Below are positions 6,001 through 49,900 of a stretch of 64,000 nt of DNA, piece after piece; position 1 is the first letter of the stretch, and every line of letters starts with the position of its first letter. This DNA is from a virus. The notes beneath the pieces were generated by a model, which made no database searches, was not told the origin of the DNA, and worked only from the letters and a program-made list of their open reading frames with translations. Location: positions 1 through 64,000 of the IMG/VR virus record IMGVR_UViG_3300048446_000526; one strand, 5' to 3'. A program made the translations under genes and the position numbers.

Positions 6001-9000
6001 GGCGAATCTGGTATATTCTATCTTGACCCAGCGATTGATGAAGCAATCAATTTCCAAGTACCGCAACCACAAGGCAATATTATAAGTCAGGGTGGAGACC
6101 CGTTTGAAGTAAGTTATATTAATCAGTCTGCTATATCAGAAGATATGGGATACTTACTAAATGTGGGGTTCCTTACTAATGAAAGAAGATTCAATATTAC
6201 TTTGACTCCTACAGGAGTAGATGGAGAATACTACCAAAGAACAGACAGATTCGCAAACCAACAGTTAAAAATTACTATTCCATACAACGCTTACAACTCA
6301 AGTGATGTAGCAGTAGTGCCAACACCATCTCAAACTCTTGAACCTGTATTTGACACCATATTGTACACAGGCCTAATACTGAGTAATACGAACCCCAATA
6401 CTGTACAATACTATGAAAGTGATGAACCTTGGACCATACAAGTTAAAGTGACAGGAGGCGTTGTGGACCATGATCCTACCAATCCTCCAAATCTTAGAAT
6501 ATTCAATGCTCCTAATCAAGGAAGTTATGCGAATAATAATAATCCTATTGATTGTATTATAACTTATACTCATCAAAATGATCCGGGTAATACTTGCTGG
6601 ATTGTGAATGCTACAGCGAGAAGGGATGTCCTTGGTCAATACATGCCTAATCAAACAGGTGAATTTAGATTGGTCGTCAATGCAGATGATGGCCTGACCG
6701 ATTATGCAACTCTCAATGAAGCGAACGGTATCAATGATCAGTTTGTAATTATCTACAGTAAGCCATCTGGTTTTATAAATCTACCTCCTTTACTACATTC
6801 TGTTCCTTCTGCACCCTTCTTTACTCATTGTGATGTTCTTTCTGCAAACAGTGAGACAAGACCTTCTATTAGTCCTCTAAATCTAAATGGCATCAATTTG
6901 ACTAGTATTGATTATAGATACGACCTTGATTTCCCTCTATGGCAACGTGCATACAGAGGTACACAAGGAAATAATTACATTTGGGATGCGAAAGTAGAAA
7001 TTAGCAATAACGGACTTATTACTAGTTCTGTAAAGGCTATTGGAGACGACAAAGTTCAGGCTGTGGCTAAATTTGAGACTTTAGAAATAGAAAGCGATCA
7101 ATTAAAATCAGTACCCTTTAGAATTTTGAGTGTCATACCAGCAGCCACAGAATCAGAAGACTTTCCTCCAAACACTGGCATTGTGGTTGATCAAGGAGAG
7201 GCTTGGGAATTGACTGTTACCACTATTGGTGGAATACAAGATATCAGATATCCACCTACAATTCTATTAAATAACATGCCTACTTTTTGTACAGGCTACA
7301 ATCCTCTAGATAGTAATGCCAATCAAGACCAGCAATGTATTAATGGAGAACCTAATTTCGATGGATCGACTTGGACATTTAACTTTAGTGGTCAACCTTC
7401 TTGTGATTTGCTTGGTATATATCCATTTGATATTCTTGCATTAGACACGCTACCCGGAAATCAACCAAGTCCTTATGTGGCATCAGATACATTTGATTCT
7501 CAATTTATCTATGAGACAGGAGAATTTAGCATACTACCTCCTGAGATACAATTTACAGGTGAGACGATACTATTCCCTGAGTGTAATACTTGTTATACAG
7601 GATATGTAGAATTTGGTCCAACTATTCAAGAAGACTTGGATTGTAATGGCGTAACAGGGATTAAATCTATATCATTTAGCGGAACCTTGCCTAGTGGATT
7701 GGACTATGAAATATTCTTCCCAGAAACTACAGACGGTCCTGCAATTACCAGAGGTAAAGGAACAGGAATACCTCCTACTGTAGTCTTCCCTGCTCCTTGG
7801 GACAATCTTGCTAGTGGATACATACAGATCACAGGATGTCCTACACACTTTGCTACTGGAGGCAGCACATACACAGAAGTCTCAGAAGCAACAGTCTGCA
7901 ACGCAGTAGACGCTTGCGAGTCGTTAACTATTGAGTTCGAAGATGGTTCTGAACCTATTAAACCTAACATTGACTTTTCTTTCTTCTTTCTTCATTCTGG
8001 CATGGTGCAAACAGCAAAGACAGGAACAAGTGTACTTGGAGAGGGAGGAGAAGTAAGCAAGTCATACGCTCCATCTGCACAAGAATACAATCTAGATTGT
8101 GGAACAAGACTAGAGATTAGCGATTGCAGGACTTATGCAGTATTCTATTCGGGTGAGCCCGGACTTGGTAAAACACACGTTAGTGGTATCTACCCTGAAG
8201 GCCAATCTGAGAATAATAAAATTAGTCTTGAACCTTATCCAAATAACTTTGTCTTTATAACTGGACAAAATAATTCTTTCTTCGGCAGGCATATAGCAGA
8301 AGAATCTCCTCTTCCAGAATACGACGTATTACTCAACGTAAGCCTTGCAGGTAACCAAGGCACAGGTCTAATGGTAGTAGAAAAAGTTCCTCAACAAAAA
8401 CCAAAATCAGATAAATTAAATAAATATTTTGATGATCTACTTTTTGATCCATCTACAACCACCTGCCTACTAGGTAATGGAACAATGGGTGCGGGAGAAG
8501 GTCAAGGAGAGACTACTAAATATGGAATTAGAGGACAGGTATTGCCTAGACTATCTGGACAATTTGTAGACATTAATAGTACTTTTGCGGAAAACGATGA
8601 GTATTTCACTGGATTGAATTTAATTGAGATTAATCAAGATACTGATATACCAATAATTAGTTTACTATCAGTTTCAGACTGTTATTCTACTGGATATATG
8701 AGAATAAGCGGAATAGCAGTTCCTTCTATTCAGACAGAAATTACTGACCCTCCTCCAGCAAGTGAATCTCCATTTTTCTCCTACAAGGGACAACAGTTCT
8801 CACTGGCTACAAGATTGTCTTATGGAGACACTGAAGAACAAAGAAACAATCCAGTAAACAGACGACCTAGCCAAACTTTATATTGGACTGCTTATAATTC
8901 TGTTGATGATGTAGCAATTACTAATGGTCAGGTTCAGTCTAGTGGTGCTTTTACATTTACTGCTGGCTCTAGCAGTGGTGTCGTATATGCCATAAGAATA

Positions 9001-10473
9001 TACAATGAAGCCGACTTTGCACCAACTAATATATCCAACATTAAAGGTTATTCGCAAAACGACTACATATGGATACACAAGGGTGGAAACAGGGCAGATC
9101 AGCCAATAGCCACAACCTTCCCTCCTGTTGTACCTACAGGATTTAGTCCTTCAGGCTTGCATCTAAAACAAAACGTAGCCACCATTCAAGCAGGATTAGC
9201 ATACGGTGGATATGTAATACCTGATGGAACAGAAACAGACCCAGAGGGAACTAAGTACAAGATGATACAGGCTGGTGTGCCAGCGATACCTTACTGGAAA
9301 ACACCTAATCCGGGTTCACAAGATTATACATCAGCAGACTATTTACCAAGTATCAGCGGTATGGTTCTGTCTTCTTTTGGCAACCTAGAACCATTTACCA
9401 CAGGTGTAACTGTAGAAATCAATGAGACTCCTAGAACAGGATTGATACCTGTATCAGATGATTATGTTGGAGTAGGAGATAGAGTAGATATATTTATAGG
9501 AGATGAAAACAATACATTCATTAATGAGTCCTACACATTGACTGCTAATGAATTATTAGGCTCTCCTGTTACAGGAGTACAGGTGACAGGAAGCAACACC
9601 CCTTACTTTGGATTCCGACAACTTGATGCGACTATCACTAAAAAAATAGAAGTTAGTGGAATAGTAGGAGGAACAGGAGTTGTGCTTTATCATCCTAATA
9701 TTGATTATACGATAGGAGACATAGTCACCTTAGAAGTATCAGGAGAATCAAGTAGTCTTTATACTGCTTGCAACGATGTTGACCTAATCATTGTTAACGG
9801 AGATACAATAGGCATGGAACTCGCAGTTGCTCCAACAGAAAATTCTTGGTATGTTGGACTACTTCAAGTAGGAGACACAGTAACTCTGCATAAGCAAGAA
9901 GAAGGAGAGATATTTATTCCATCCAATAGTATTACTGTTAGTACTGAAGGTCAATATGCGTTTGAAATACAAGGAACGCCAACCACTTTGTATAAAGATT
10001 ATACGTTTAGAATCGTAACTTGTGAAAACCCTCAACATCCAGTATATACGCAAACCAGCCTAGAGCCTAAACTATACAAAAAAGATTACAATATGTATGT
10101 ATCTAAGCCTATCAATATTGTTAATTCTAGTGTGGTAATTGATGGCAGTAGATCAAACGGAAACTGGAGAGTAAGATTCAACCTAGAAGGAGGACTAAGA
10201 CCTATAAGAAATCACAGCCCAAGAGTCATGTTAAGATACGGAAGCAATACTCTCGGAACTTTCTGTGGATTCACTAGGACTGTAGTTTACGGACCTCCTC
10301 TAGAAGAACCATACCAAGACAATAGAATATTTGACGAATACGATGCAGTAAATGATCAACTTATAGTAGAACTTAAACAAGCCGAAGGTTTTGATTGGAG
10401 TGGTCAATCTACCATCGAAATTGTTGTTCAAGACGAAACAGGGGAAAGCACTTTAAACGTAACACTTCCTTAG
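1..10473 (+). CDS. giant tail fibre / tail adhesion protein with tail collar domain (5' end outside window)
   Basis: The frame is open from the first base, so the gene starts upstream; the GTG at 46 is internal. About 3,490 residues are visible. A phage tail collar-type domain lies near 2150-2370 (PEGWVVLDGSTYDR, then LPDLRKVTPVG), a fold known from short tail fibres and tail tips. The rest is beta-rich and Ig/cadherin-like. Two similar segments start near 6424 (EPWTIQVKVTGG) and 7198 (EAWELTVTTIGG), about 774 bp apart, and look like tandem domains. Ser-Gly and Thr-Gly dipeptides are frequent. The gene ends 13 bp before the collagen-like fibre gene, and I infer a role in host adhesion at the tail tip. 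The tail-protein assignment is firm, the exact role is not. Confidence 0.8.
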   Translation, partial: QTGTPADTFITVISGVGGYDPYVTFEQGYNSFIGLFTSGSSIVQCTGVSTEYETTTLYGDPCGLCTGVSLLVDFERGSPNQVVQVEEVWCVKGLQATPLLNSGKVIYTYPAISQNSVRVGQKFNIGSVEYTVGSELPQTSYSNKYGFSASTSANASTERIALNPNIEWINYTGLPSNLFQPPQGITATPEDIFEPRVPESGLLLDSNIEIELEFDEPVTNLVLCFSGVQASNLQGGYILQEDKDEILLEDGLGSLVNDFANAPSGAIISDRPLLLIDKANLLPITDIVPTMVSFTGLDCRFVLCATGTFDKISFTAAVDQGTTYALSIGELVPKTIDTSNTALIQIDTPYTGYNNNENYITVAAEILYTGTPIDSGNLPISGLKEGNVFFNCQENSSSGVYGYETTQQYDEDACYVTGQCQVYSAKTTVDEDGEVLGQASYKVTFDEDIYISQNKESYVQLTNWTPTDSNPERTIVPEEGHYPISILSNITSNSFVIPEEYAIALPIPGTGMSREGTVSGEFDIYHPYKTEDEKILNHIPAQFLTIERTYNPPVTNPNYKPKDNMFEIMGITGSKIFTEDKVNYVLIEDNRPPYLDQKISGNYTTDSREFYATTSPFSNRLRDLTFDPDNIRDLNYADAPWSLKDIYVLADYDSANSRLTLYNIPTGIFKPLDTIQVSFNSPTSANNSGCNLFPIYHDVPAENMYLYTGLPITEPSGENIGNILFTFSEAPPEGWVVLDGSTYDRTQYPALAQYLDFHRVLYSSGWALGNEGWTASTLPDLRKVTPVGQHENTLTAFSNIGEIIRDTGNKLLLENNKNGEFGQADNIVGNWIMYTQGSFIDPRYPINFSDSGTLNYVIDNVDIKDSDGDKTENFITPYARVRIDILQFLEPDIRMNYQAGEDEPNYIYIQHQPEKTNQYDISEPNVLIDPNGCAFTGPYSDPYKVYTPTNEVTVKLRYDEKGGNGQQYSLVLDNRYGMKNFEEDLGFARLYTPKMYDFDAGITGMAWWPEGVLPLSIAHDGPARTPLQYASGGNSTPTGWGIVNSPMVFEYDTDIVPNEEIVFGNYTMSGSFGIWVKISGEVTDASANTAVRVLHRKYDQETQLACRKINNPSSDGYVVSDNNGGSQLFSIPHGHEVVIQWANGICDDTEIPEGTGTLYAQIYGGIYPEGRGTPVYIDVPSNFYIREDFIEANERNPNKNPRRVYQLPSVELKNNVCSPDVRYNGEWFTLPYKASIDSLNVPKSYLEYGDEFKLMSINKNSNFSDKVTRILTKINPTSETTSVSGLATSSDLCRFIPCTTDSVYTKYRKTTMWGDHATDDYPAVSNLNYRITGYFESGSVQHIDFMDIFPLSEDQFTFTVNMYNEDDLPFTGCVLTEEDGSWVSMAEYVGCTSQDQKTVTFEAFPRSVSLKVAMQECSGIVIFSVTTNDNAISMQENFPKSWSDPLLITAANCPLSYANNTFKNIDTFWQSPFESCNTGLYQDRPRSATPFGLQLNQNIGWTGMCEFVQTVSGRMYIPENNNLYFHTYGGTAAHWPLDYKGSGIPTQQTGVYIIDDVPDFGAVNSCSSGLMCIAISGWNNNPITGIPTVGDRNDLGSNPIIIESNGVTGIVSNYGANKQLFFDFDDGLPQMSKVYNVIDYIDGTRKIVINAPYDSSVVNKSGLVFMIENDENIKTHLNPNVDNEFNVYDPNVVPSNIFDPQINHFDLNTRRWKHLLHYDFDQIGTGLQEVTISISGTSQDVNIYPIYPVGINLSGVRISQTLNGTFEDYSSGDAFSIDDSTSTFYMQVVTLDGQPPFTDNAFVELPKVSISGIQDYEFIFDDTVIVGGSPFTSSHGSGWNIGIQVNRTQEEIDSRLITVRAEDITGKSDVALSFSQTGLPEVLQSYTGYSLVGDNTWLIVYDTKNLELNTANVEFELLGSPAAANQITYQPIRDNVLSVSGPVDAAATTTQYYDVSLIAKTGSQKIPAATGTGLLIDLKFNRDWSPLNLTLNNFNSFGKRGESGIFYLDPAIDEAINFQVPQPQGNIISQGGDPFEVSYINQSAISEDMGYLLNVGFLTNERRFNITLTPTGVDGEYYQRTDRFANQQLKITIPYNAYNSSDVAVVPTPSQTLEPVFDTILYTGLILSNTNPNTVQYYESDEPWTIQVKVTGGVVDHDPTNPPNLRIFNAPNQGSYANNNNPIDCIITYTHQNDPGNTCWIVNATARRDVLGQYMPNQTGEFRLVVNADDGLTDYATLNEANGINDQFVIIYSKPSGFINLPPLLHSVPSAPFFTHCDVLSANSETRPSISPLNLNGINLTSIDYRYDLDFPLWQRAYRGTQGNNYIWDAKVEISNNGLITSSVKAIGDDKVQAVAKFETLEIESDQLKSVPFRILSVIPAATESEDFPPNTGIVVDQGEAWELTVTTIGGIQDIRYPPTILLNNMPTFCTGYNPLDSNANQDQQCINGEPNFDGSTWTFNFSGQPSCDLLGIYPFDILALDTLPGNQPSPYVASDTFDSQFIYETGEFSILPPEIQFTGETILFPECNTCYTGYVEFGPTIQEDLDCNGVTGIKSISFSGTLPSGLDYEIFFPETTDGPAITRGKGTGIPPTVVFPAPWDNLASGYIQITGCPTHFATGGSTYTEVSEATVCNAVDACESLTIEFEDGSEPIKPNIDFSFFFLHSGMVQTAKTGTSVLGEGGEVSKSYAPSAQEYNLDCGTRLEISDCRTYAVFYSGEPGLGKTHVSGIYPEGQSENNKISLEPYPNNFVFITGQNNSFFGRHIAEESPLPEYDVLLNVSLAGNQGTGLMVVEKVPQQKPKSDKLNKYFDDLLFDPSTTTCLLGNGTMGAGEGQGETTKYGIRGQVLPRLSGQFVDINSTFAENDEYFTGLNLIEINQDTDIPIISLLSVSDCYSTGYMRISGIAVPSIQTEITDPPPASESPFFSYKGQQFSLATRLSYGDTEEQRNNPVNRRPSQTLYWTAYNSVDDVAITNGQVQSSGAFTFTAGSSSGVVYAIRIYNEADFAPTNISNIKGYSQNDYIWIHKGGNRADQPIATTFPPVVPTGFSPSGLHLKQNVATIQAGLAYGGYVIPDGTETDPEGTKYKMIQAGVPAIPYWKTPNPGSQDYTSADYLPSISGMVLSSFGNLEPFTTGVTVEINETPRTGLIPVSDDYVGVGDRVDIFIGDENNTFINESYTLTANELLGSPVTGVQVTGSNTPYFGFRQLDATITKKIEVSGIVGGTGVVLYHPNIDYTIGDIVTLEVSGESSSLYTACNDVDLIIVNGDTIGMELAVAPTENSWYVGLLQVGDTVTLHKQEEGEIFIPSNSITVSTEGQYAFEIQGTPTTLYKDYTFRIVTCENPQHPVYTQTSLEPKLYKKDYNMYVSKPINIVNSSVVIDGSRSNGNWRVRFNLEGGLRPIRNHSPRVMLRYGSNTLGTFCGFTRTVVYGPPLEEPYQDNRIFDEYDAVNDQLIVELKQAEGFDWSGQSTIEIVVQDETGESTLNVTLP

Positions 10474-24091: not shown

Positions 24092-27000
24092 ATGGCATCA
24101 TTTGATATAACTGCACAAATTAATCTGAGAGGGCCAACGAATGTCAAGAAGATTGCTGCTGACATTCGTAGGCAACTTTCTACTGTTACTACAGGTAGCG
24201 TAAAATTAAATATTGACCCAAAGACCAACCAACAAGTTAATCAACTTAACAAGTCATTTCAGCAGTTTAACAATACTTTAAAGCAGACAAACACTACTGC
24301 TAAACAAGCAGCCGCAAGCCTTAATCAATTAGGTTCTGCTGTTAATACAGTTAACACTAATGCTAGGGCAACCACCAACGCACTAAATCAAGTACAAACT
24401 GCAAATCAAAAAGTGGCAACTAGCACTAAACAAGTAGCCCAAAACGCCCAAGCCGCAGCAACAGGTTTCGATAAACTTGGTAAAAATATTGGTCGTCGTA
24501 TCACAGACTTTTTAGCATTTAGAGCAGTGTCTACTGTGATTGGTGGTTTAAGTTCAGCCATAAGTCAGGCAGCAGGAAACTTTATTGACTTTGAAAGAGC
24601 ACTTGCTAAAGTTCAGCAGGTTACAGGAGGAACGAATGCGTCTATTCAAGTCTTGTCCAACACCATTAATAACGCAGCCGTTGCAACAGGTTCAGCCGCT
24701 AAAGAACTAGCAGAGGTTACAGTAACTTTATCTCAGGCTGGTTTAAGTGCCGATGATACAGCGACAGCGTTAGAGGCTCTAGCACAAACAAAGTTAGCAC
24801 CTACATTTGGAGACATAAAGGATACAGCGGAAGGTGCTATTGCTATTTTAAGACAGTTTGGATTAGAAGCAGATCAATTAGGAGATGCACTAGGTAGCAT
24901 AAATGCTGTAGCAGGTCAGTTTGCTGTTAGTTCAAGTGATGTTATTGTTGCTGTTAAACAAGCGGGTGCTGTGTTTGCAAGTTCAAGCAGAGGAGTTGTT
25001 GATGCTGAGACTGCATTGCAGCAATTTATTGCAACATTTACTAGTGTTAGGCAGACTACGCGAGAAAGTGCAGAAACTATTGGTACTGGTCTTAAAACTA
25101 TTATCACTAGATTACAGAGACTTGATACCATAGAATCATTAAAAAACTTTGGCATTGAACTTACAGACCTTGAAGGTAAGTTTGTAGGACCATTTGAGGC
25201 CATCAAAAGATTAAATGAGGGATTAAAGAATCTTGATACTAGAGACATTCGTTTTGGTGCCATCATTGAAGAACTTGGTGGTTTTCGTCAGGTCGGTAAG
25301 GTCATTCCTCTTATTCAACAATTTGCTGTTGCACAAGAAGCACTAAAGGTGGCACAAGAAGGGCAGGGTTCTATATCAGATCAAGCCGTTATCGCACAAA
25401 AAACTCTAGGCTTTGAAGTTGCACAAACAGCAGCACAATTTCAAAAGTTAATTACAACAATAGGCAACAGCAGTGCTATTCAAGGAACAGTAAGGGTTGT
25501 CTTAGAATTAGCACAAGCACTTCTTTCAGTAGCAGACGCATTAAGTGATATATTGCCCCTGCTTCTTGCAGTAGGAACTAATGCTGCTATTGCAAGCATT
25601 GCAAGTGTTGGAAAAGGCATCGGTAAGTCTTTTGGGTTTAATCAAGGAGGAGTAGTACCAAAAGGCTATGCTAGTGGAGGTTATGTTCCGGGTTCAGGAA
25701 ATCGAGACACTGTACCAGCAATGCTGACTCCCGGTGAGTTTGTTATTCGCAAAAAAGCAGTACAGGCTATTGGCGTTGATAAATTAGGAGCAATGAACCA
25801 AGGAGGAGCATCTACCGTAACACAAGCCAAACACATGGGAGGCAGAATACAAAAGTTTGCAACTGGTGGACAAGTAGCAGTCGATTATGTTCAAAGCAAG
25901 CCTGACGCCGCCACAGAAAAACAGTTAATAGGAAACAATATAATCAATTCTATTAATAATCTTGCAAATTTCTTTAGTCCTGAAGCAAAGAATGTATCAG
26001 AAAGAGCCGATCCTAAGAATGTTGTTCCTAACTATTCTGGTATGGTTGGAGGAATCTTTGAAAAAGCAGTTGAATTAGTAGCAGGAGTTACAGTACCCAA
26101 GTCAAAAAATAATCAGGTATGGGACTATCCTGCTGGACTTGGAGATACCGAACTGTTTAACTATGTACCAAGTTTAAATAGACCTACAGACGCTAAAAAC
26201 AGTGTTAATAGCAATGCTGTTATTGACAAAAAACTACAAGCACATTACAACAACGCTAAAGGTTCAGAAAAATTAAGAACTAAATTTGGTATTGTTGTAT
26301 TTGATGAAGGCGTAGATTATGATTATACTTTTGATCCTTCTTATTTCAAAGAACGAGCATTAGACAAAGATTCTGTAAAGAAAGCAAGAGGAGGCTTGAT
26401 ACAAAATTTTGTTGACGGAGGCGAAGCAATACCTATAGCAAAATCAGGCCGAATCAAAAAGAAAGATTTAGCAGATGCCACTACGCCACAACTAGAACAA
26501 CTATTAAAAAATCCAGCAGTTATAAGCAATCCTTCTACTACACAAGCAATTAACAGCGAACTAGCAAAAAGAGGAAAAGAAGCCAAGGCAGAAAAATTAG
26601 GGGTTGTAGGCATACTTCCTATAAACTACGCTAAGGACTTAGCACCCGCAGATTATGGCGGTACGTTTGCTAAAATCTATGCTAGAGGCTTGCCACAAAA
26701 ATATGAAGAAACCGTACTCAATATCTCTAAAGGACTAAGAGGGGTTGTAGACGAGGCAGCAAGAGGATTAGGTGAAGACAATCCACAGGCTCTTTCTCCT
26801 GAACAAGAAAAAGCAACCGGACTAGAAAACGTACAAGGAACTGTTTTTGAAGCAGTGCTTTCAGCCCTTGGTGCAAGAGGCGGGAGCGTACAAAATCAAG
26901 CCATTGATTACCAAAATGGTCTTGGTCCTGCTGCAAGAATATTTCCGGGTATTGGTCCAGATTGGCCTACAGAGGTCAAACGAGATGTAACTGGTGCTGG

Positions 27001-30000
27001 TATGAGTAGGGCAAAAGGAGAGTTTGCCAGATACTTTAAGGAAAACGCACAAAATAAAAGCATAGGAGGAGCAATACAAAGATTTGCTACCGGAGGCAGA
27101 GTAAATGATAAAGCAGGACTGAAGATTAAAACTACCGGAGGAAGCACAATCACTTCTACTTTTGAAGAAGGCCAAACTAGTTCTGGAGAAGTGGTGGCAC
27201 AGAATATAGGCAAAAATTTATTTTCTGTTGTTGCTGCTCAGGCATCAGGTGGTGGAGGAAGGGCTTTATACGATGCTGCTATGAAACAAGCGACAAGACA
27301 AGGAGGAAGTTTGGTTTCAGATAGAAGCAGAGTTAGTTCATCGGCCTTAAATCGTATTTGGAATACATACTATGGTACGGGTAAGAGTAAAACAGGCCAG
27401 AGAGTTGGCAGGCAACCTGTACCAGAAGACATGCTTTATACAGGTGCGTTCTTTAAAGATTCAGATTTTCCAAGCCCTGATCCTTCAACATGGCAAGGTA
27501 AGGCAGTGTCTTTGCAGTATGCATATCAACAATTTGCAGATGGTGGAGCAGCATCAGGAGGAGATACGGTTCCTGCTATGTTGACTCCCGGCGAATATGT
27601 TATTAATAAAAAAGCAGCAAAACAAATTGGTTTACCCAAACTTAACCAAATGAATTATGCTGATAGGATTAAGGGATATGCAACAGGCGGGCCTGTTGGT
27701 CCGGTGCAGTACTTTAACAATGGAGGATCACCTGCTTCCGGTTCTGCTCCTGCCAGCAATCCTTGGGTAACTGCCGCAAAGATTAATTTGACTGCTGCGA
27801 AACTTAATCAAAAAAACGCAACAACTAATAGTAAGACAGCGGCTACAAACGGGCAAGCAGCAAATACAACCTCGAACAGCGTAAACAATATTCCTAAAGA
27901 AATGGGTATTGGAGCAAGACTTGCTTTCGGGCTCATAGGCCCGCTTATTGAACAAGCAATCGTAAAAATAGCACCAAATAGTGCTATTGCTGCTGGTGCT
28001 GGAGAAGGTATTAGTCAGGGTATTGTGGCTTCTTCAACGTCTAAAGAACTTCTTGGTGGTTTAAGTGGAGCGGCAAAACTTGCCGCTGGAAGGTTTGGAA
28101 AGTTTGGAAAACTTTTAGTTACTAGTGGGAAATTTTTAGAGAAATGGACCGGGACAATTACAACAGGAATAGGCCTCTTCGCTGGTTTTAACGGGTTCCT
28201 TAGTGGTCAATTAAACAAAAGTATAGAACTATTAGCCCTAAGAACCACTGAAGCAGGAAAAGCGGCAGAAGAGGCATTTGCAGGTCTACCGGGAGTAATA
28301 GCAAAAATTGGTACTAACGCAGAAGACTACAATGCCATATTATCAGACGGTGGTGCAAAACTAGCAGATATGATTACAGCAGCAGAAGCACAGAGACAAA
28401 AATCCCAACAAAAAAACCAAGGAGGATATTTTGGTGCAGCATTTAGAGGTCTTGGACTTGAAAGTGAGGAAGGCAGAGAAATTAGAGAGGCTCAAGGAAG
28501 AGACATAGACAGAGAAGCATTTAGGGCAGCAGGTGATTTAGCAACCAAGCAACTGCTGGCGATTGTTTCATCGGGCGACAGCGTAGAAGAGGCATTTGGG
28601 GGCAACAAAGTCGCTTTGGATAGTTTCAAGAGAGCCATAGCACTTACTGATCTTGCATATCAAAAAGAAGAGAGAAGATTACAGGATTTAATTAATAAGG
28701 CTGGAGCACAGTCGGCAGCAGGTCAAGCCTATACAGAAGAACTTAGAAAGGCTCGTGAGGATGCTTTCAAAAAAAGAGCAGCCGATGTTGACGCAGCAAT
28801 AGCATCCCAAAAACTCAAGAAAGAAATAGAGGAGCAAAGAAAGGCTTTAAATTTAGCAACAGTAGCCATTGCAAACTATACCATAGCCTATAACAAGGGT
28901 GCTGACCAAGCAGCATTTGCGTTTAAAAAACTGGCTAAGTCAGCAGATCGTATGGCTGAAGGACTCAGTGGAACTGATCCAAGTCAATTATTTGCTGATA
29001 ACATCAATGTTATACAAAACCCTGAACTCTTTAATCAAACAGACAACACGCTCGCTCTTGAACCTCTGAAAAATATATTAGGAGGTAATCGAGATGCTAT
29101 TCAGGCATTTACAACTCTTCCCGCTGAAATTGCAGGAGCACTGCAAAGAGCCGTTAATCAAAACCCTGAAAACAATGCACAAGGTGCTGCAATCATACAA
29201 GGTGAAATAGACCAAGTTCTCGCTGATAAGTTTGGTAGCAATAGTCTGTTCGCTAGGACACTGAGCAATAGCATAAAAGGTTTAATAGCAGAAGCACAAG
29301 GAAATCAAGATGGTGAATTTAATGCAGCAGCATTGATCAAAGGCACTACGGAGATTATAGAAAAGTTTGGTGAAGATGTTAAAAAAGGTTTAGTAAAAAG
29401 TTTAGAAACCATTCAAGAGGCATTCGGAAAATTAGCACAATCTTCTGCTAGACTTTTCCAAGCACAAAACAATTATGCTAATGCGGTCAGGAATAGTGTT
29501 ACAAGTCAATTAAAACTTAATCAAGAGATTAAGGAGGCATTATCAGAAGTTCGTCAACCTAGAAGTATATCTTCAATAAATGATACAAGTGGTGTTTCTC
29601 AACAACAAGTTAGTAATGCTGGGGACTATTTCCAGCAGTTGGCTATTATACAGCAGGAGCAAACCAGACTCAATGTAGAGCAAGTCAGGCTGACACAAGA
29701 AGGCATAGACAAAGACGGTGAAAACGCCACAGAAATCGCTACTGCTATAGGAGCCAACGAAGCAGCCCTAGCAAACCTAAATGCTAATACCAAGAATTTA
29801 CAAGCCGCTTTACAAGATAAATTAGGTCAACTTCAAAGTGAACTAGGAAGTAGACTAGCAGACCTGAAAGCGGAACAAGCAGCAGCAGAAAGTATTTTTG
29901 AAAGCCTGTTAAAGGATGAAGGAGATACTAATCAAGGCATATCAAGGGCGTTGCAGGTAGCAAGCGGTCAGGGCGTTGGTAATCTTACCGGAGACGAGGC

Positions 30001-33000
30001 TATTCGTGTATTGAAAGATATTAAGCAGTTGCAGGCTGCTGGTATTATAGAAAACAATAAAGAGACAAGAGAAAATGTAGTAGGGGTTCTTGGTGAATCA
30101 AGAGGACTTGGTAATTTTACTGGCTTAGGACAAGAAATTATAGATAAGATTATTAATGCACCGGGAGAGGATGATCAGGTTAAGGCCTATGTAGCAGAAA
30201 TACAAAGAACTAATATTGCTATTAATCAACTTACATCTGCTTTGGCTTTCACAGAATTTAGCAATGCCTCCAAAGCATTGAATATTTCACAGGACGCACT
30301 AAGAGTTTCTATAACAACACTTAACGATACTATAAAGTCGGAAATAGGTAAAATTAAAGCCAACGGAGGACAAGACGTAGAAGGGATTACTAATGAACCA
30401 GAAACAAAAGCAAAAGGAGGTTTAATTTATCGTTCAAGCGGTGGTGGTACACAAAAGGGAGTAAATTGGCAACCTAGAGGAACAGACACTATTCCAGCAA
30501 TGCTCACTCCGGGTGAATTTGTAGTAAATGCAAAAGCCACATCGCAAAATAGAGGTCTTCTTGAGTCTATAAACAGATCGTCTGGTGGTCCTGTATCACC
30601 TGCTAGAAAAAGTACTGGAGGTATTCTTTACAGAAATGCTGGAGGAGGCACTGATAGTTCTTCAACAGAGAGTGTTGGATCAATACTTGATGGACTTAAT
30701 GCAAAGCAGATATTAAATCTCTTGAAAGAAGCAGACTTTATGAAAGAAGGGGGTGCGTTGAACAGCATTAGAGATTGGACATCCAATACAGCAAGTGCCG
30801 TTAAGTCAGCCATAACCAAAAGAGCAAGCGGAGTTTATGGAGGTTTTAAGAATTTTGGAAAAATTAAAATTCCTACATGGATGGATGACGCAGTTAAAAA
30901 CGGCCTTTTAAGTGAAGATGTAGTAGCAGGTTTAGCCGATAAACCATATGCGGTTACTAAATTCCTTAGAGGAAAAATAGATTCTCTTACTGCTGGCCCA
31001 GTTGCACAACGAATAGGACAATTTACTGGTGGGGCTTACAAGTTTGCAAGTAATAAACTAGGCTTACTGGCTCAATCTAAGTGGATTAAAAATATTCTAG
31101 GTCCAGCAAAGAGTGTTCTTAAATATATTCCGAAACTTGGCTCATTCCTTGGTAATTCTCCTGCTTCAAGTCTTGCAAGCAAAGGACTTGCGTGGGCAGG
31201 TCTTGTTGAGCATATGATATCAGGTGCTTATGCAGGAGTTAATAGAAGTCAAGATTTGCAAGATTCGGGAGTTAGTCCTTTGTCGTTTCAAGGAATAATG
31301 TCTCCTTTGGCTGAATTTCTTGCAGGAGGAACCGCTGACGGTGCTTTGCCTCCAAACGCAACAAAAGAGCAAAAGGCAGCATGGATGGAAGGAACCAAGA
31401 ACGGAAAAATTCCTCGATACAATTCGGCTAGTTTTCAGGCATGGGGAACCGCAAGTCTAAGTAATCTACTTAGAATGGTTGGAGGAATGGGTACTGGTTT
31501 TACTCTTGCTGCTCAATATGCCCCAGCGGCAATGCCTTATTCGGGAATGATTGGTGCTGCTGTTGGAGGCGGCATAGTTGTTGCTGGTCAAACTTTCCGA
31601 ACCCTTGAAGAAATCGCTGGTCTTTGGGGAGATCAACCAGACCTTGCTCAAACAAGAAGACAAGAACAACAAAATGAAGACTCGAAGCAAAGTTTCGTTG
31701 GCGACACTAAAGACCAACTACCGGTTCTTGGTGACTTGCAATACAACAGGGCTGTCTTTGCAGGACAAAAGAGAGGAAAACTCAAAAAATATGAGAATGA
31801 TAAAGCCAGATGGAAAGAGGTTGAAAAACAAGGTGCAGCAGTTAAAGTTAATGATGTAGATGCGTGGGCTTACGTAAAAAGTAAATATGAAGCCGGTTTA
31901 CAATCGCATAAGTTTGATGTAGAAGATGGTAAATTTTTAAGAAACCTTATTCCTGTAAAACAGCAAGGTTATCTGTGGGATCAATATAGCGACGAAGATA
32001 TACAAAAAGCCTATACCGCTGTTATGCTGGCTTCAGAAGAGAAGTGGAAAGACTTACCTCTCATAACATCCCTTAATCCTAATAAGAATATTAATTTAAC
32101 TTATGGTGATAATATTAAAAACTTGAGGGCTGTTGCAGAAAGCACACAAACAAGATTATTTGGAGACGGTGAGGATAGACCAGCAGATGAAAATTATTTT
32201 GAAGGAGATGATAAGTTAAGAAGTATTATGGCTCAAAAGGGCGAATTGTATAATGCGAATGCCTCTTGGTTGGAAACATATGTTGGTAGCGAAACAAATC
32301 AAGATAAAAGCGAAATGGATTTCTTAGATTACGAATCTAGTAACTTCACTAAGATATCAGAATACAATAAGGCAATAAAGGCTAGGAGAGCAGAACTTAT
32401 TCAAGAAGAGAAGGATAGGCGAATTGCAGAAGCAGAGACAAAGAAGGCAGCAGAAGACAAGCAAAACGAAGAAGTCAGAAAGTTCGGAGGACTACAACAG
32501 AATTTACAGTCTCTTACATCAGCAGAAAATCCCGACTTTGAGTTTATGCCACAGGCTCCATTTATTAAGCCTAAATCAAGGTTGATACTTCAGCGGCAAA
32601 AAGATAGTTTGGCAATGAGACAGAAACTTGCAGAGACACCTGTATTTTACCCAGATGAAAACGATAATCTTGTACAAGGACCACCAATGGGTGAGTACTT
32701 AGATTGGAAGACAGGTGCGTTTACAGATAAGCCTGAGTTAATTAAAACTAAAAGCGAATATGATTTCTGGTCAGGAATTGGTAATGCTATAGTAGAATAC
32801 AGAAAAAATTACAGAGTCGGTGGTGACCTGTATGATGTGCTTCCTACAGTCCATCCATCTCAGGCTATATTAAAAGACATTGCTGGTGGCACTCAAAGTG
32901 AGCAAATTGCTTTTAGAAACTTTATGAATCCAAAAGCAACAGACGCTAAAACTTCAACCGCTGGTGCTTTTCAAGAGTTGTTCACAGATTATCCTACAGA

Positions 33001-34696
33001 ATTTGCGAATATAACTAAACTTTCTGAAGAAGAGAGCAAACTACCTCAAAAAGAACAAGAAAAACTTATACAAGGCAGAAGAGATGCACTCATTGCTAAA
33101 CTTGCTACCCAAAACGGCTTACTGGATGGTCAAGGTCAGCAGGCAATTTACAATAAAATCGCATTGGCATTATCTCCTCTAGCAGGCGACTATTATGAAA
33201 ACATTAAGGGAGTAAATTTTTATACTGATAAGTACACTCCAGAGCAAATTTGGACTGCTAGTAATCAGAACGGTCAGTTTGGTCTTGGTCTAACATCAAT
33301 GATAGGGGCTATGGGTGTAGACAATGCAAAGGAACTATATCCTCAACTTGCTGGTGCTAAAAAAGGTATGGATTTTGCTGAACTCAAAGGAAATTACCAA
33401 AAGAGAATTCAAAACCTGTATAAGGTTCGTGGAGATGATCCTTTTGAAGAACAAGACTTACAAAGACAAAGAAGCAAAGATAAAGCCCAAGCAGATGCTT
33501 ATGCCAAACAAGAACGACAAAGACTCAAGAAGGTTGAAAACTATGCTAGACTTAATCTTGTAGGTCAAACTTTTCCTGAAGACCCTCTTGAGTATGTAGA
33601 CTTTAGACAAAAACAAACAGATGCTTTCTCAAGGTCTGTAGAAGGTTTTGGTCCAACTTATCCTGTGCCTTCTGATCTTATAGCATTCAAAAACGGTGGT
33701 GTGTCTGAAAGATGGGTAAGAAAATTATTCACTCTTAAAGATCAAGCATCTAATTTTGAACTTAGTCAAAAAACAGCAGAAGCACTACTCAGATACAAGG
33801 CTCAGTTCGGTGAAGGCACTGACGCAGAACAATGGCTCTCTAAGGTTTACCAACTTGATGGCAAAATTGATATTGATGATATATATGCAAGTACTCCGGG
33901 TGAAGGTGGTGCAGCAAGTGCAGCCTCAGATTTATCCAATATTCAAACTAAGATAAGTGATGTAGAGAAGGTAGTAGCAAGCATAAAAGGTAAAGCAAAT
34001 TCTAAAAACGCTGTAGCAAGAAGAAAACTAGAAAATTCTATGGTAGACTTGAAGGTTGCTGGGCTGTGGAATCCTGCTCAGGGCGTAGACCAAAACGCAC
34101 AGAGCCTTATGAGTCTGAGTCAGGGACAATTTGCAGCAGACCCACTTTTAGATAAACTCAAAGAATATGGCGATATCAACCTTTCTGATAAATTCCGTAA
34201 TGCTAAGGCTATAGGCCTAGCAACAGGAGGGATGGTTCCAACAAGCGTATTTACTCCTAGAGGCACAGATACCGTACCTGCTATGCTCACACCGGGAGAG
34301 TACGTTGTAAATAAGAAGGCCGCAGCAGAAAATAGACCTTTACTAGAGTCTATTAACGGTAAAAGAAAGTCCAGAAACCCCAGAAGTTCATACTATCAGG
34401 ACGGTGGTAATGTGAGCAATAATGGTGTAAATAATGTTGTCGCAATAGATGTGCAGGAAATCAGCAAGTTTGTTACCTCATTTGACAGATTTAGTAAAGA
34501 ATTAGCCAATTTGAATATTCCTTCGGAAATTACTCTACAAGGAACACACACAGTTGATGTTAATGTAAACGGGGCTCAAGTCTTGAACGACTTACTTAAC
34601 GGCCCGATTGGTGAAATGGTAGCCAGCGAAGTAGAATTGGCGTTCCAAAGACAAAGCAACGAATCAGAAGGGGCAGTACCAAATCCATTTAGTTAA
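24092..34696 (+). CDS. tail tape measure protein with inserted enzyme-like modules
   Basis: The 3,534-residue protein starts after an AGGAGA site. Residues about 150-480 match the TP901-type tape measure core (FERALAKVQQVTGG; QAGLSADDTATALEALAQT; TTRESAETIGTGLKTIITRL). From about residue 515, glycine-rich motifs of the type GGxIQxFATGG alternate with globular segments. Four copies of DTxPAMLTPGExV lie at residues 539, 1158, 2132 and 3393. Between the first and second copies are two PD-(D/E)XK-like segments and one GNAT-like segment, listed separately. A hydrophobic helical region near residues 1270-1390 and another near 2300-2530 could become membrane-inserting. The rest is polar and helical. 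The tape measure sets tail length and is ejected into the host first, so attached modules would be delivered too. The tape-measure call is firm, module functions are inferred. Confidence 0.88.
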   Translation: MASFDITAQINLRGPTNVKKIAADIRRQLSTVTTGSVKLNIDPKTNQQVNQLNKSFQQFNNTLKQTNTTAKQAAASLNQLGSAVNTVNTNARATTNALNQVQTANQKVATSTKQVAQNAQAAATGFDKLGKNIGRRITDFLAFRAVSTVIGGLSSAISQAAGNFIDFERALAKVQQVTGGTNASIQVLSNTINNAAVATGSAAKELAEVTVTLSQAGLSADDTATALEALAQTKLAPTFGDIKDTAEGAIAILRQFGLEADQLGDALGSINAVAGQFAVSSSDVIVAVKQAGAVFASSSRGVVDAETALQQFIATFTSVRQTTRESAETIGTGLKTIITRLQRLDTIESLKNFGIELTDLEGKFVGPFEAIKRLNEGLKNLDTRDIRFGAIIEELGGFRQVGKVIPLIQQFAVAQEALKVAQEGQGSISDQAVIAQKTLGFEVAQTAAQFQKLITTIGNSSAIQGTVRVVLELAQALLSVADALSDILPLLLAVGTNAAIASIASVGKGIGKSFGFNQGGVVPKGYASGGYVPGSGNRDTVPAMLTPGEFVIRKKAVQAIGVDKLGAMNQGGASTVTQAKHMGGRIQKFATGGQVAVDYVQSKPDAATEKQLIGNNIINSINNLANFFSPEAKNVSERADPKNVVPNYSGMVGGIFEKAVELVAGVTVPKSKNNQVWDYPAGLGDTELFNYVPSLNRPTDAKNSVNSNAVIDKKLQAHYNNAKGSEKLRTKFGIVVFDEGVDYDYTFDPSYFKERALDKDSVKKARGGLIQNFVDGGEAIPIAKSGRIKKKDLADATTPQLEQLLKNPAVISNPSTTQAINSELAKRGKEAKAEKLGVVGILPINYAKDLAPADYGGTFAKIYARGLPQKYEETVLNISKGLRGVVDEAARGLGEDNPQALSPEQEKATGLENVQGTVFEAVLSALGARGGSVQNQAIDYQNGLGPAARIFPGIGPDWPTEVKRDVTGAGMSRAKGEFARYFKENAQNKSIGGAIQRFATGGRVNDKAGLKIKTTGGSTITSTFEEGQTSSGEVVAQNIGKNLFSVVAAQASGGGGRALYDAAMKQATRQGGSLVSDRSRVSSSALNRIWNTYYGTGKSKTGQRVGRQPVPEDMLYTGAFFKDSDFPSPDPSTWQGKAVSLQYAYQQFADGGAASGGDTVPAMLTPGEYVINKKAAKQIGLPKLNQMNYADRIKGYATGGPVGPVQYFNNGGSPASGSAPASNPWVTAAKINLTAAKLNQKNATTNSKTAATNGQAANTTSNSVNNIPKEMGIGARLAFGLIGPLIEQAIVKIAPNSAIAAGAGEGISQGIVASSTSKELLGGLSGAAKLAAGRFGKFGKLLVTSGKFLEKWTGTITTGIGLFAGFNGFLSGQLNKSIELLALRTTEAGKAAEEAFAGLPGVIAKIGTNAEDYNAILSDGGAKLADMITAAEAQRQKSQQKNQGGYFGAAFRGLGLESEEGREIREAQGRDIDREAFRAAGDLATKQLLAIVSSGDSVEEAFGGNKVALDSFKRAIALTDLAYQKEERRLQDLINKAGAQSAAGQAYTEELRKAREDAFKKRAADVDAAIASQKLKKEIEEQRKALNLATVAIANYTIAYNKGADQAAFAFKKLAKSADRMAEGLSGTDPSQLFADNINVIQNPELFNQTDNTLALEPLKNILGGNRDAIQAFTTLPAEIAGALQRAVNQNPENNAQGAAIIQGEIDQVLADKFGSNSLFARTLSNSIKGLIAEAQGNQDGEFNAAALIKGTTEIIEKFGEDVKKGLVKSLETIQEAFGKLAQSSARLFQAQNNYANAVRNSVTSQLKLNQEIKEALSEVRQPRSISSINDTSGVSQQQVSNAGDYFQQLAIIQQEQTRLNVEQVRLTQEGIDKDGENATEIATAIGANEAALANLNANTKNLQAALQDKLGQLQSELGSRLADLKAEQAAAESIFESLLKDEGDTNQGISRALQVASGQGVGNLTGDEAIRVLKDIKQLQAAGIIENNKETRENVVGVLGESRGLGNFTGLGQEIIDKIINAPGEDDQVKAYVAEIQRTNIAINQLTSALAFTEFSNASKALNISQDALRVSITTLNDTIKSEIGKIKANGGQDVEGITNEPETKAKGGLIYRSSGGGTQKGVNWQPRGTDTIPAMLTPGEFVVNAKATSQNRGLLESINRSSGGPVSPARKSTGGILYRNAGGGTDSSSTESVGSILDGLNAKQILNLLKEADFMKEGGALNSIRDWTSNTASAVKSAITKRASGVYGGFKNFGKIKIPTWMDDAVKNGLLSEDVVAGLADKPYAVTKFLRGKIDSLTAGPVAQRIGQFTGGAYKFASNKLGLLAQSKWIKNILGPAKSVLKYIPKLGSFLGNSPASSLASKGLAWAGLVEHMISGAYAGVNRSQDLQDSGVSPLSFQGIMSPLAEFLAGGTADGALPPNATKEQKAAWMEGTKNGKIPRYNSASFQAWGTASLSNLLRMVGGMGTGFTLAAQYAPAAMPYSGMIGAAVGGGIVVAGQTFRTLEEIAGLWGDQPDLAQTRRQEQQNEDSKQSFVGDTKDQLPVLGDLQYNRAVFAGQKRGKLKKYENDKARWKEVEKQGAAVKVNDVDAWAYVKSKYEAGLQSHKFDVEDGKFLRNLIPVKQQGYLWDQYSDEDIQKAYTAVMLASEEKWKDLPLITSLNPNKNINLTYGDNIKNLRAVAESTQTRLFGDGEDRPADENYFEGDDKLRSIMAQKGELYNANASWLETYVGSETNQDKSEMDFLDYESSNFTKISEYNKAIKARRAELIQEEKDRRIAEAETKKAAEDKQNEEVRKFGGLQQNLQSLTSAENPDFEFMPQAPFIKPKSRLILQRQKDSLAMRQKLAETPVFYPDENDNLVQGPPMGEYLDWKTGAFTDKPELIKTKSEYDFWSGIGNAIVEYRKNYRVGGDLYDVLPTVHPSQAILKDIAGGTQSEQIAFRNFMNPKATDAKTSTAGAFQELFTDYPTEFANITKLSEEESKLPQKEQEKLIQGRRDALIAKLATQNGLLDGQGQQAIYNKIALALSPLAGDYYENIKGVNFYTDKYTPEQIWTASNQNGQFGLGLTSMIGAMGVDNAKELYPQLAGAKKGMDFAELKGNYQKRIQNLYKVRGDDPFEEQDLQRQRSKDKAQADAYAKQERQRLKKVENYARLNLVGQTFPEDPLEYVDFRQKQTDAFSRSVEGFGPTYPVPSDLIAFKNGGVSERWVRKLFTLKDQASNFELSQKTAEALLRYKAQFGEGTDAEQWLSKVYQLDGKIDIDDIYASTPGEGGAASAASDLSNIQTKISDVEKVVASIKGKANSKNAVARRKLENSMVDLKVAGLWNPAQGVDQNAQSLMSLSQGQFAADPLLDKLKEYGDINLSDKFRNAKAIGLATGGMVPTSVFTPRGTDTVPAMLTPGEYVVNKKAAAENRPLLESINGKRKSRNPRSSYYQDGGNVSNNGVNNVVAIDVQEISKFVTSFDRFSKELANLNIPSEITLQGTHTVDVNVNGAQVLNDLLNGPIGEMVASEVELAFQRQSNESEGAVPNPFS
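25706..25753 (+). repeat. tape measure motif copy 1
   Basis: The segment encodes DTVPAMLTPGEFVIRK at residue 539, preceded by a glycine-rich GGYVPGSGNR linker. It is one of four near-identical copies in the protein. Confidence 0.9.
25862..26420 (+). other. inserted PD-(D/E)XK-like module 1 within tape measure
   Basis: This segment lies between the linkers GGRIQKFATGG and GGLIQNFVDGG. It contains a GGIFEK helix (E657), WDYPAGLGD (D678) and RPTDAK (D700, K702). The E, D and D-x-K spacing of 21 and 22 residues fits the catalytic signature of PD-(D/E)XK nucleases. It parallels module 2, which suggests a duplication. No search was run, so this is an inferred fold. Confidence 0.4.
26420..27100 (+). 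other. inserted PD-(D/E)XK-like module 2 within tape measure
   Basis: The segment starts after GGLIQNFVDGG and ends at GGAIQRFATGG. It contains GTVFEAVL (E920), AIDYQNGLG (D939) and WPTEVKRD (E961, K963). Spacings are 19 and 22 residues. The motifs DYxxGLG and PT[DE]xK are shared with module 1. All candidate catalytic residues are present, so an active nuclease is possible if the fold is right. Confidence 0.45.
27100..27540 (+). other. inserted GNAT-like module within tape measure
   Basis: After GGAIQRFATGGRV, the segment has FSVVAAQASGGGGRALYDAA (glycines 1053-1056), a helix, then GGSLVSDRSRVSSSALNRIW (D1077, R1078). This resembles the acetyl-CoA-binding loop and following strand of phage GNAT-like proteins, which often show LYDAAM and PDR-VS motifs. 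It may be an acyltransferase-like fold or a degenerate copy. Confidence 0.4.
27563..27610 (+). repeat. tape measure motif copy 2
   Basis: The segment encodes DTVPAMLTPGEYVINK at residue 1158, just after the GNAT-like module and preceded by FADGGAASGG. Confidence 0.9.
30485..30532 (+). repeat. tape measure motif copy 3
   Basis: The segment encodes DTIPAMLTPGEFVVNA at residue 2132, preceded by WQPRGT and followed by LLESINRSSGG. Confidence 0.9.
34268..34315 (+). repeat. tape measure motif copy 4
   Basis: The segment encodes DTVPAMLTPGEYVVNK at residue 3393, preceded by FTPRGT and followed by LLESING. Its flanks match copy 3, so these two form one subgroup. Confidence 0.9.
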
Positions 34697-46963: not shown

Positions 46964-49900
46964 ATGTCTTGCTGTAATATTAATTATTCCAGAAATTATG
47001 AAACTGTTGTAACTTCTGCATTTAAAAGCAGTTTTGCTTCAGCACAAAAAAGTTCTGTGTCTAGAGAAAATACACCTAGTACAACAGGGTGGTTTCCTAT
47101 AATCGCTAGATATAGTCCTAGGGGAAATGCTTTTTATACACCTCAGTTAAGTATGCCTCAAATAACAGGATACACTCTTTTTGATCCTATTAATTGCAAC
47201 AATGCAGATTTTACAGACCGGGAGTTAAGCGACCCAAACAGTATAAATATGGACACATCATATTGTGAACAATGGTCTCCCGAAAACAATGCTAGTATTC
47301 AAACAGGGAGAATGAAAAAAGCAGACGGTACTCAGGCTCCTGTCTCTAGGAAAGGCGGCTTGAGTGATGTTATGACCCATCAATCTGATATATATCATGG
47401 TATTCCATACTTGATGACACAATATGCTAGCGGTTTTATGGACAACAAATTTGATGGAACTTTTCCTCTAACTATGAACAACCCTGTAGGATGGAATAGT
47501 GTTGTAGAGTCTACGCCAGAAGAAGGAACAAATAAGAGATATTCTGATTGGCATATTATGCCAAGAATGGGAGAGATAGATTACGATCCTATGACAAGCC
47601 AATATCTAAACGAGCGAGATCATTCTATGGCTAATAAAAAAGCCATGATTGCACATAAAACAGCGGGCAATTTTATTCTGTTTAATATTGGAGATGTTTT
47701 TCAAGAAAATGATGAAGATTGGGAAGATGATTATCTTGCTTATGCAGATATTCTAGAACCTCTTTTGGTGGATACATCACAAGGAGAGAAAATCAATGAA
47801 AGAGGGTCGTGGGACTTAAAACTTCCTGAGCCTGAAGAGTTTATGCAGCCTTATGGCTTTGATGCATTTACTTATAACAATGTTTTTGTTGGAGATAAAA
47901 AACGTGTTTCATATTGGAAATGGGATATAAATAAATGTTCTGCGGCGTGGGTTCTCAAGACGGATGAAGAAATTAAAATAGAGGTAGGAGAAGAAAGCGA
48001 TAAAATGGACTATATAACATATATTCCATCCGGTGATTGTTTTATTGCTAAAATTGATCCTATAGAACCTCAAAATAAATCTAGTGACCCCCAAATGAAC
48101 AAAGAAGGTGAAAAGAGGTGTCCATCTGGTGTTAAATTTATTGACGAAGGCACAGTCTATACAATTCCTCATAACAGTTATGCCGTGTACATATCTTGTA
48201 ATATTTATCCTGCTTTTTATGAGGCTTTCAATGCTTTAAAAAAAATAACAAAAAGTATCGAAAATCTTATGCCTGTTGAACCTGACGAAGAAGGAGATAG
48301 TAAAAATACTCTTTATCGTGTGATTGAACAAGCCATGTATGTGGCTACTCATCCTTTAGTCGATAAAATCACCGTAGACCTGCATAAAAATAACATCCAA
48401 AGTGCTGAAAAACTTACACCTCATATCTGGGGTGGTTATCTTAATCCACAGTATTCGTACATGAACGCATATGATAAAAATTATGCTAGTTTTAATAATT
48501 TAAATCTTTGTAAAACTTGGACAGATTTAGGCAGGACAATTAATAATAAGTATGGATCATATTTTACTGAAGAAATAGAAATAGGATCAGAATCATTTGC
48601 TCCTTATACTTCTTCTCATATAGGCGTTGATGTGCTTTATGATCTTTATGCCAAAGGGGGTTCGTTCAGAACTAAGGGTAGACAAAGTACTGACTATAAA
48701 GATATGACTCCTTGGTATCCTGATTTTCAGGTATCGCTTGGAGGACTAAAATTAAAAGTTGCTGATGAAAGAAGTATTATAGAAAGAACATACTATAGTT
48801 TTAATGAAGATGAAGAAGGGTGTTCTCTTGATGATTGGAAGGCTTTTAGCAATTTGCAATTAAATGATAAAACTTTATATAGCCGTTATTTGCAAAGCGG
48901 ACTATATGAGATGAATAGTTACTATGTAAGAAATGTTAATGAACAAGGTGGCAGCATTAGAGGTTATTGTGATATATGTGACGAGTACAGCACATATGAA
49001 AATTACGGAGGAGAAGAAAACTGTGTTGAACACGATGGATCGCTTCCGTTTTGTGACTGCGACGAAAATCCAGACCCAGAAAAATATCCTGAACTGCCTT
49101 GTGTAGGCATATCCGATAATACTGTAAGACTAGAAAGAAAATACGAAGTTATCGTAGATACTAATTCTTTTCCTATTAATATGGCTTTTCATTTGGACGG
49201 AGGTGCTTATTATAGGGCGAGAAATCTAGAAGAAACAGGATTTATACAAAATGCAAATATTCAAGCATGGGGCAGTATGAAGGTAAGGTTTGCTTCATTC
49301 GATACTCGTGTTGCACAAACTAGGGCTTGGGCTGTAGACGTATACCAGTTACAGACCGACGACCCAAAGACGTTCTCATGTGAAAGGTTTCCTGTATTAG
49401 AAAATTGCGAACAAAGCAAAATTCTTTACGATGACACTTACCCTATTCAAAAAGACACTTTGGTATACGCACATACTACTGCTTATACTCCTGCTCAAAG
49501 CACTAAATACTCTCCTTCTCTTAAATTATATGGAGGCTACGACAAGGGCAAACTTGAAGAATTATTTCCTGCGTATGATTTTCCTGATGTAGGGAAGACT
49601 GTCAGAGGTAAGACTACTTATAGAATAGACCCTGATAACCCATTCGGATGTGAATCAAATGACTATTTAGTACATGAAAATTATTTGAGAAGTTCTATAA
49701 AAATAGAACTCAATAATCAAAATGACCCATATTGCGATCTAGTTATGACTTCTAGAGAAACCGTAGACATTACTGGTCCTAGATACTTTATTACTTTTGA
49801 TGAATTTGGAAATGAAGAACAGATACTCAATAAAGATTTTAAAAGATTTTCTACGAGTGTGACTTATCAGCCACAAGAGCCTGAGCCCACACAAGGATCG

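Follow-up and report, generated by a model that had tools for sequence, protein, structure and literature searches.

The stretch of DNA considered here (the window) comprises 64,000 nucleotides, positions 1 to 64,000 of the IMG/VR virus record IMGVR_UViG_3300048446_000526, which is 87,412 bases long. It carries an open reading frame (ORF) for a tape measure protein (TMP) of 3534 amino acids. Residues 194–393 of this protein match PF10145 [PhageMin_Tail] above the cut-off of the Pfam scan (E = 7.4e-22), and comparison with PHROG gave tail length tape measure families, the best with an E value of 3e-23 and the others weaker. Tail fibre and baseplate matches occur among the adjoining ORFs; the conserved N-terminal domain of TMPs is found here in a very long ORF of a tail cluster. 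Between this domain and the long rod of the protein lies a region, here called the bay, which holds two homologous modules with the residue signature of PD-(D/E)XK nucleases. The features of the TMP gene are as follows, with the basis of each in brackets.

24092–34696, + strand: tape measure protein ORF, 3534 amino acids (Pfam and PHROG matches)
25706–25747, + strand: first bay-flanking linker, DTVPAMLTPGEFVI, residues 539–552 (sequence)
25838–25870, + strand: linker GGRIQKFATGG, residues 583–593 (sequence)
25859–26425, + strand: module 1, PD-(D/E)XK-like, with E657, D678, D700 and K702 (family alignment, profile comparison)
26060–26062, + strand: codon of E657, the helix glutamate (sequence; E/Q in 55/55 non-redundant copies)
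26123–26125, + strand: codon of D678 (sequence; D in 55/55 non-redundant copies)
26189–26197, + strand: codons of D700-A-K702 (sequence; D/E in 55/55; K 36, T 18, R 1)
26390–26422, + strand: linker GGLIQNFVDGG, residues 767–777 (sequence)
26423–27100, + strand: module 2, PD-(D/E)XK-like, with E920, D939, E961 and K963 (AlphaFold model, family alignment A2)
26849–26851, + strand: codon of E920 (sequence)
26906–26908, + strand: codon of D939 (sequence)
26972–26980, + strand: codons of E961-V-K963 (sequence)
27065–27097, + strand: linker GGAIQRFATGG, residues 992–1002 (sequence)
27101–27508, + strand: third module, GNAT-acetyltransferase-like by eye, GGGGRALYDAAMKQATRQGGSLVSDR (motif only)
27563–27604, + strand: second bay-flanking linker, DTVPAMLTPGEYVI, residues 1158–1171 (sequence)

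The bay of the window (residues about 553–1157) thus has three modules, the GNAT-like one coming after modules 1 and 2. DTVPAMLTPGE linkers close it off at both ends, and GGxIQxF hinges subdivide it. A preliminary description of this DNA, made from the sequence alone, had placed two PD-(D/E)XK-like modules in the block 25862–27100. Both modules are there; the limits proved too narrow, as the bay extends between the linkers at 25706–25747 and 27563–27604. The framing of the two segments by GGxIQxF linkers was seen correctly, three such linkers being present (residues 583–593, 767–777 and 992–1002), and all eight residues that had been named (E657, D678, D700 and K702; E920, D939, E961 and K963) were found at their positions. 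The spacings are 21 (E657–D678) and 22 (D678–D700) in module 1 and 19 (E920–D939) and 22 (D939–E961) in module 2, and the shared pattern G[GT][IV]FE...DY..GLG...PT[DE].K occurs in the TMP exactly twice, at residues 653–702 and 916–963. A predicted helix and the segment KFGIVVFDEG come after the motif region of module 1; in module 2 a beta meander of three strands and a long helix come before it.

Comparison of module 1 with a profile of the family from which it had been removed (hhalign) gave a probability of 97.5% and an E value of 8.7e-12, and few columns are better conserved across 55 non-redundant relatives than those of the motif. The resemblance of the two modules, noticed beforehand by eye, is therefore above chance. 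Judged by such profiles, modules 1 and 2 are homologous and belong to one previously undescribed domain family. Within it they are placed in separate subfamilies (local support about 0.94–0.95), and they share approximately 18% identity. A recent tandem duplication was considered as their origin and is ruled out by these two supported subfamilies and the low identity.

No match to the modules was obtained by tblastn against 50,697 records of cultured phages, nor by single-module scans of viral contigs, nor by a scan of genome contigs with one module subfamily. The N-terminal region of the TMP, used as the query, retrieved 65 relatives in IMG/VR, the TMPs of which hold the same module at varying positions. 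Two scans with the module subfamilies added 51 loci; there every module lies inside a giant ORF, and most of these giant ORFs carry the TMP linker DTVPAMLTPGE. Altogether 71 distinct copies were collected from contigs of uncultured viruses, all of them in tape-measure-like ORFs, and in the eight records examined whole the nuclease-like domain is confined to the giant TMP-like ORF. Among 40 distinct TMPs fetched by their N-terminus alone and extending at least 700 residues past the first linker, the domain was detected by profile in 37, and two of the three negative ones (L031 and L055) have a degenerate or missed copy by eye. These counts rest on the hand-checked alignment A1; later rounds of the iterated profile were excluded because the profile drifted into the TPGE linker.

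The preliminary description had offered loss of the E, D and K residues among homologues as a point that would speak against it. They are largely conserved. In the 55 non-redundant modules (below 70% identity to one another) the first position is E or Q in all, the second D in all and the third D or E in all, the lysine being the weakest (K in 36, T in 18, R in one). The columns of highest conservation in this set include G, D, E/Q, D/E and K/T, and D, G, E, K and D/E are the five most informative columns of 41 hand-aligned modules. The same holds for the 28 modules which had not been picked by the motif (D 28/28, D/E 28/28, E/Q 28/28; K 21, T 7). Both modules of the window possess the full signature, lysine included. 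Where T stands in place of K, a Gly-Lys pair, which may be a migrated substitute for the lysine, is usually found some 6–12 residues downstream (16/19 T members versus 1/46 K members; Fisher p 2e-11, a value which overstates independence, since the T members are themselves related). Many members also show [QEN]xxx[YFW] in the helix after the motif, and a QxxxY motif is typical of RecB-type nucleases. At the level of sequence the family thus presents the acidic signature E/Q...D...(D/E)x of PD-(D/E)XK enzymes, and the pattern of conservation supports the view that the four acidic and lysine positions behave like catalytic residues.

AlphaFold gave a confident model of module 2 from alignment A2 (33 sequences; predicted local distance difference test [pLDDT] 91.2, predicted template modelling score [pTM] 0.80), and a poor one of module 1 (pLDDT 60) which is not interpretable. 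In module numbering the model of module 2 has strands at 57–65, 70–77, 82–89 and 183–188 and helices at 92–115, 126–132, 134–148, 168–173 and 191–213. E143 (E920 of the TMP) lies on helix 134–148, a bridge is found at D162 (D939), and E184-x-K186 (E961-x-K963) is on strand 183–188, with helix 191–213 next. In the model E is thus on a helix, D and ExK are on the strands that come next and a helix ends the series, an order which agrees with that of PD-(D/E)XK proteins.

A second set of modules in the bay region of relatives bears upon this. The bays of L004, L018, L063, L114 and L117 contain modules such as GLAFEEIVQKLAG...SRLDGLYKNSLAEIKS...INFGTVYVF, in which G, E, D and ExK are invariant and of which SRLDGLYKNSLAEIKS exemplifies the textbook PD-(D/E)XK spacing. 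These five were first grouped by pattern and then compared by leave-one-out profiles; four of the five were clearly related (E values of 3e-7 to 1e-11) and L063 weakly so (0.06). Against the main family minus module 1 the set aligned in the catalytic register with a score of 21.4 (single-comparison P 0.004), the controls reaching at most 16.3 (six module controls) and 10.6 (60 column shuffles). Direct comparison with module 1 alone was not significant. We regard this alignment as a hint, and no proof, that the main family might be of the PD-(D/E)XK kind.

The remainder of the bay is exchangeable. Its length varies, the second linker being at about residue 1158 here and up to 1,900 residues further in relatives such as L105, and as many as six modules per bay were counted with in-house profiles. 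By the same profiles 68 distinct ORFs gave nuclease-like modules in 66, HAD-like modules of two types in 14 and 9, SNase-like modules in 13, P-loop plus HIGH-nucleotidyltransferase-like modules in 13, HExxH modules in 9, GNAT-like modules in 8 and a second ADP-ribosyltransferase (ART)-like module in 4, a tally biased because many of the loci were fetched with the nuclease-like domain. The labels GNAT, HAD, SNase, P-loop/kinase and HExxH metallopeptidase are readings of motifs, and no membership is claimed. The GNAT-like third module of the window is conserved in L002, L008, L011, L038, L109 and L110 and found no support in Pfam, PHROG or the PDB. An ADP-ribosyltransferase, ADPrib_exo_Tox (PF03496), was identified above the Pfam cut-off inside a phage TMP at L025:5990–6730, with a weaker match in L064; that of L025 is the sole bay module above a curated cut-off, the nuclease-like family matching no Pfam, PHROG or PDB profile. 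The nucleotidyltransferase is weakly supported (PF16581 below cut-off; PDB 3gmi, E = 3.2e-4).

A bay of approximately 1,900 amino acids in one TMP is that of the L105 ORF at 229 (residues 543–2453), with segments resembling SNase, a metallopeptidase (HEMTH), a P-loop protein, a HIGH-nucleotidyltransferase, the nuclease-like domain and an ART. SNase-like segments stand at the start of the bay in L006, L007, L023, L027 and L105, most with DGD[ST]...G[YV]DA[YF]E, again a motif only. The DTVPAMLTPGE linker repeat itself is present in 229 INPHARED (cultured-phage) records, in many of them within TMPs; in T4-like cyanophages it adjoins baseplate hub genes. None of the modules was found in the linker-sharing TMPs of cultured cyanophages, Clavibacter phage CN1A and others.

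Elsewhere in the window the structural region includes two more giant ORFs, at 46–10473 (+ strand, 3475 amino acids) and 46964–55912 (+ strand, 2982 amino acids). An HNH/homing-endonuclease-like ORF is located at 59199–59984 (− strand; PHROG, E = 6e-14) and a glycosyltransferase-like ORF at 63197–63997 (− strand; PHROG, E = 3e-17).

We would give an even chance to the proposal that modules 1 and 2 represent a new nuclease-type family which is delivered with the TMP and acts early in infection. The conserved residues E...D...(D/E)xK most probably constitute a phosphodiesterase (nuclease) site, metal-dependent and of the PD-(D/E)XK type, and the modules may be described as a candidate nuclease family. 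By analogy it is plausible that the bay is cargo entering the host with the DNA, a reading strengthened by the other enzyme-like modules which the bay holds. A TMP departs from the tail together with the genome or earlier, and its site of action is the host inner membrane. A host nuclease has been reported to meet TMPs at that membrane (PMC13190303). We infer the catalysis, the delivery and the target of the bay modules in the following form. The TMP would exit the tail ahead of the genome and its bay would pass into the envelope or cytoplasm, where the hinged modules would refold beyond the tube; such refolding must be assumed, since for domains in the folded state the lumen of the tail is narrow. 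The nuclease domain might then act early upon host or rival nucleic acid, or upon the incoming DNA end, and the accessory enzymes of the bay would be tuned to the host. That the nuclease-like domain is almost constant while its neighbours are swapped suggests a single core task, to which host-specific functions are added. That in this uncultured phage lineage the TMP is a general effector carrier, its bay of exchangeable enzyme modules around a new nuclease family passing through the tail to be set free in the host ahead of the genome or along with it, is a tentative extension to which we give slightly less than an even chance.

Several points weigh against a delivered PD-(D/E)XK nuclease. Known profiles and folds failed to recognize it, and here the preliminary description, which had looked to a profile or structural match for support, was not borne out: no known nuclease emerged when 40 members were scanned against Pfam and PHROG or when PDB profiles were searched, the canonical-spacing modules matched no Pfam or PDB profile, and Foldseek searches of PDB and BFVD with the model of module 2 gave nothing below an E value of 0.001, the best PDB matches being G-protein entries (E = 0.13). 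What stands of that assignment is the order of the residues, their conservation and the order of helices and strands. The three-strand meander before the motif helix is an unusual strand order for PD-(D/E)XK, the gap of about 22 residues between D and (D/E)xK is long, the motif lysine is replaced by T or R in a third of the family (19/55 non-redundant copies), and the tail lumen, as mentioned, is narrow for folded domains.

Some of these points would also suit a different kind of enzyme, such as an unrelated hydrolase, metal-dependent and new in fold, which arrived at the E/D/DxK pattern by convergence. A confident model of module 2 without a Foldseek match in PDB or BFVD, and its strand order, are what one would expect in that case. 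The residue chemistry, the helix–strand–strand–helix order and the QxxxY-like motif nevertheless fit PD-(D/E)XK, and the canonical-spacing modules of the same bay align in register, if weakly (21.4 versus at most 16.3 and 10.6); we consider such convergence decidedly unlikely. It is unlikely too that the fold is nuclease-like and without catalysis, binding the leading genome end or a host factor at ejection, its acidic residues holding a metal or the fold. The presence of the domain in 37/40 TMPs of the clade, being near-universal, does suggest a core role in the tail or in ejection over optional cargo, and T replaces K in 18/55 copies; yet no copy departs from E/Q, D and D/E, the only exchanges being chemically typical ones, and where K has been lost another lysine turns up close by. 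Finally, the modules might be structural spacers or assembly modules of the TMP, conserved for folding, since they reside inside a rod-like ruler protein and their flanking linkers are generic to TMPs and present in many phages. The conserved columns are however mostly charged and not core hydrophobics, and ART, nucleotidyltransferase and HExxH-like segments share the bay, so that a purely structural role seems very improbable.

TMPs are usually viewed as rulers which aid the passage of DNA across the envelope, and the enzymes known in them are cell-wall hydrolases. If the nuclease proposal is correct, a ruler with an exchangeable enzyme bay would be a delivery vehicle at work ahead of all phage gene expression. 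It would also offer a natural scaffold by which proteins are loaded into a tail tube, a new candidate nuclease family, and a phage counterpart of the TMP-derived effectors of contractile injection systems. The bay makes the fate of the TMP during infection a testable question.

In the open-access papers searched we found no account of nuclease modules, or of a cargo bay, in the TMP of a phage. The modules share with the PD-(D/E)XK superfamily (RecB/Hjc-like) an E/Q on a helix, a D, a strand bearing (D/E)xK, then a helix and, in many, a QxxxY-like motif; unlike its members they have an extra beta meander, a longer gap between D and ExK, T for K in a third, and no profile or fold match. Enzymatic domains in TMPs are represented by peptidoglycan hydrolases (annotated lytic transglycosylases, SPbeta-like phages), which act on the cell wall, whereas the bay modules look as if aimed at nucleic acid, nucleotides or proteins. 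Tme, an effector of the contractile injection system of Streptomyces davawensis, is likewise a TMP-related protein with a nuclease domain, in its case a C-terminal EndA-like nuclease (DRGH/H-N-N) of demonstrated activity (PMC11126660), with DUF4157 as a further mark of such effectors; the present modules are carried by the TMP of a phage, lie in the interior of the protein and have an E/D/DxK signature. Effectors of the Sle1 type also combine a TMP-derived scaffold with exchangeable functional domains, but they belong to bacterial contractile injection systems, not to phage TMPs, and bear the domain at the C-terminus; the word "nuclease" is absent from the main text of the paper concerned (PMC13277306). 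A survey of jumbo phages mentions the tape measure protein once, as a conduit (PMC7824862). The closest concept is that of the polyvalent proteins of Iyer et al. 2017 (PMC5512222), in which many enzyme-like domains, metallopeptidases included, are joined in one polypeptide thought to be delivered together with the DNA. A word search of that paper did not find the tape measure protein, and the difference lies in the carrier, which in the present case is the tail ruler itself.

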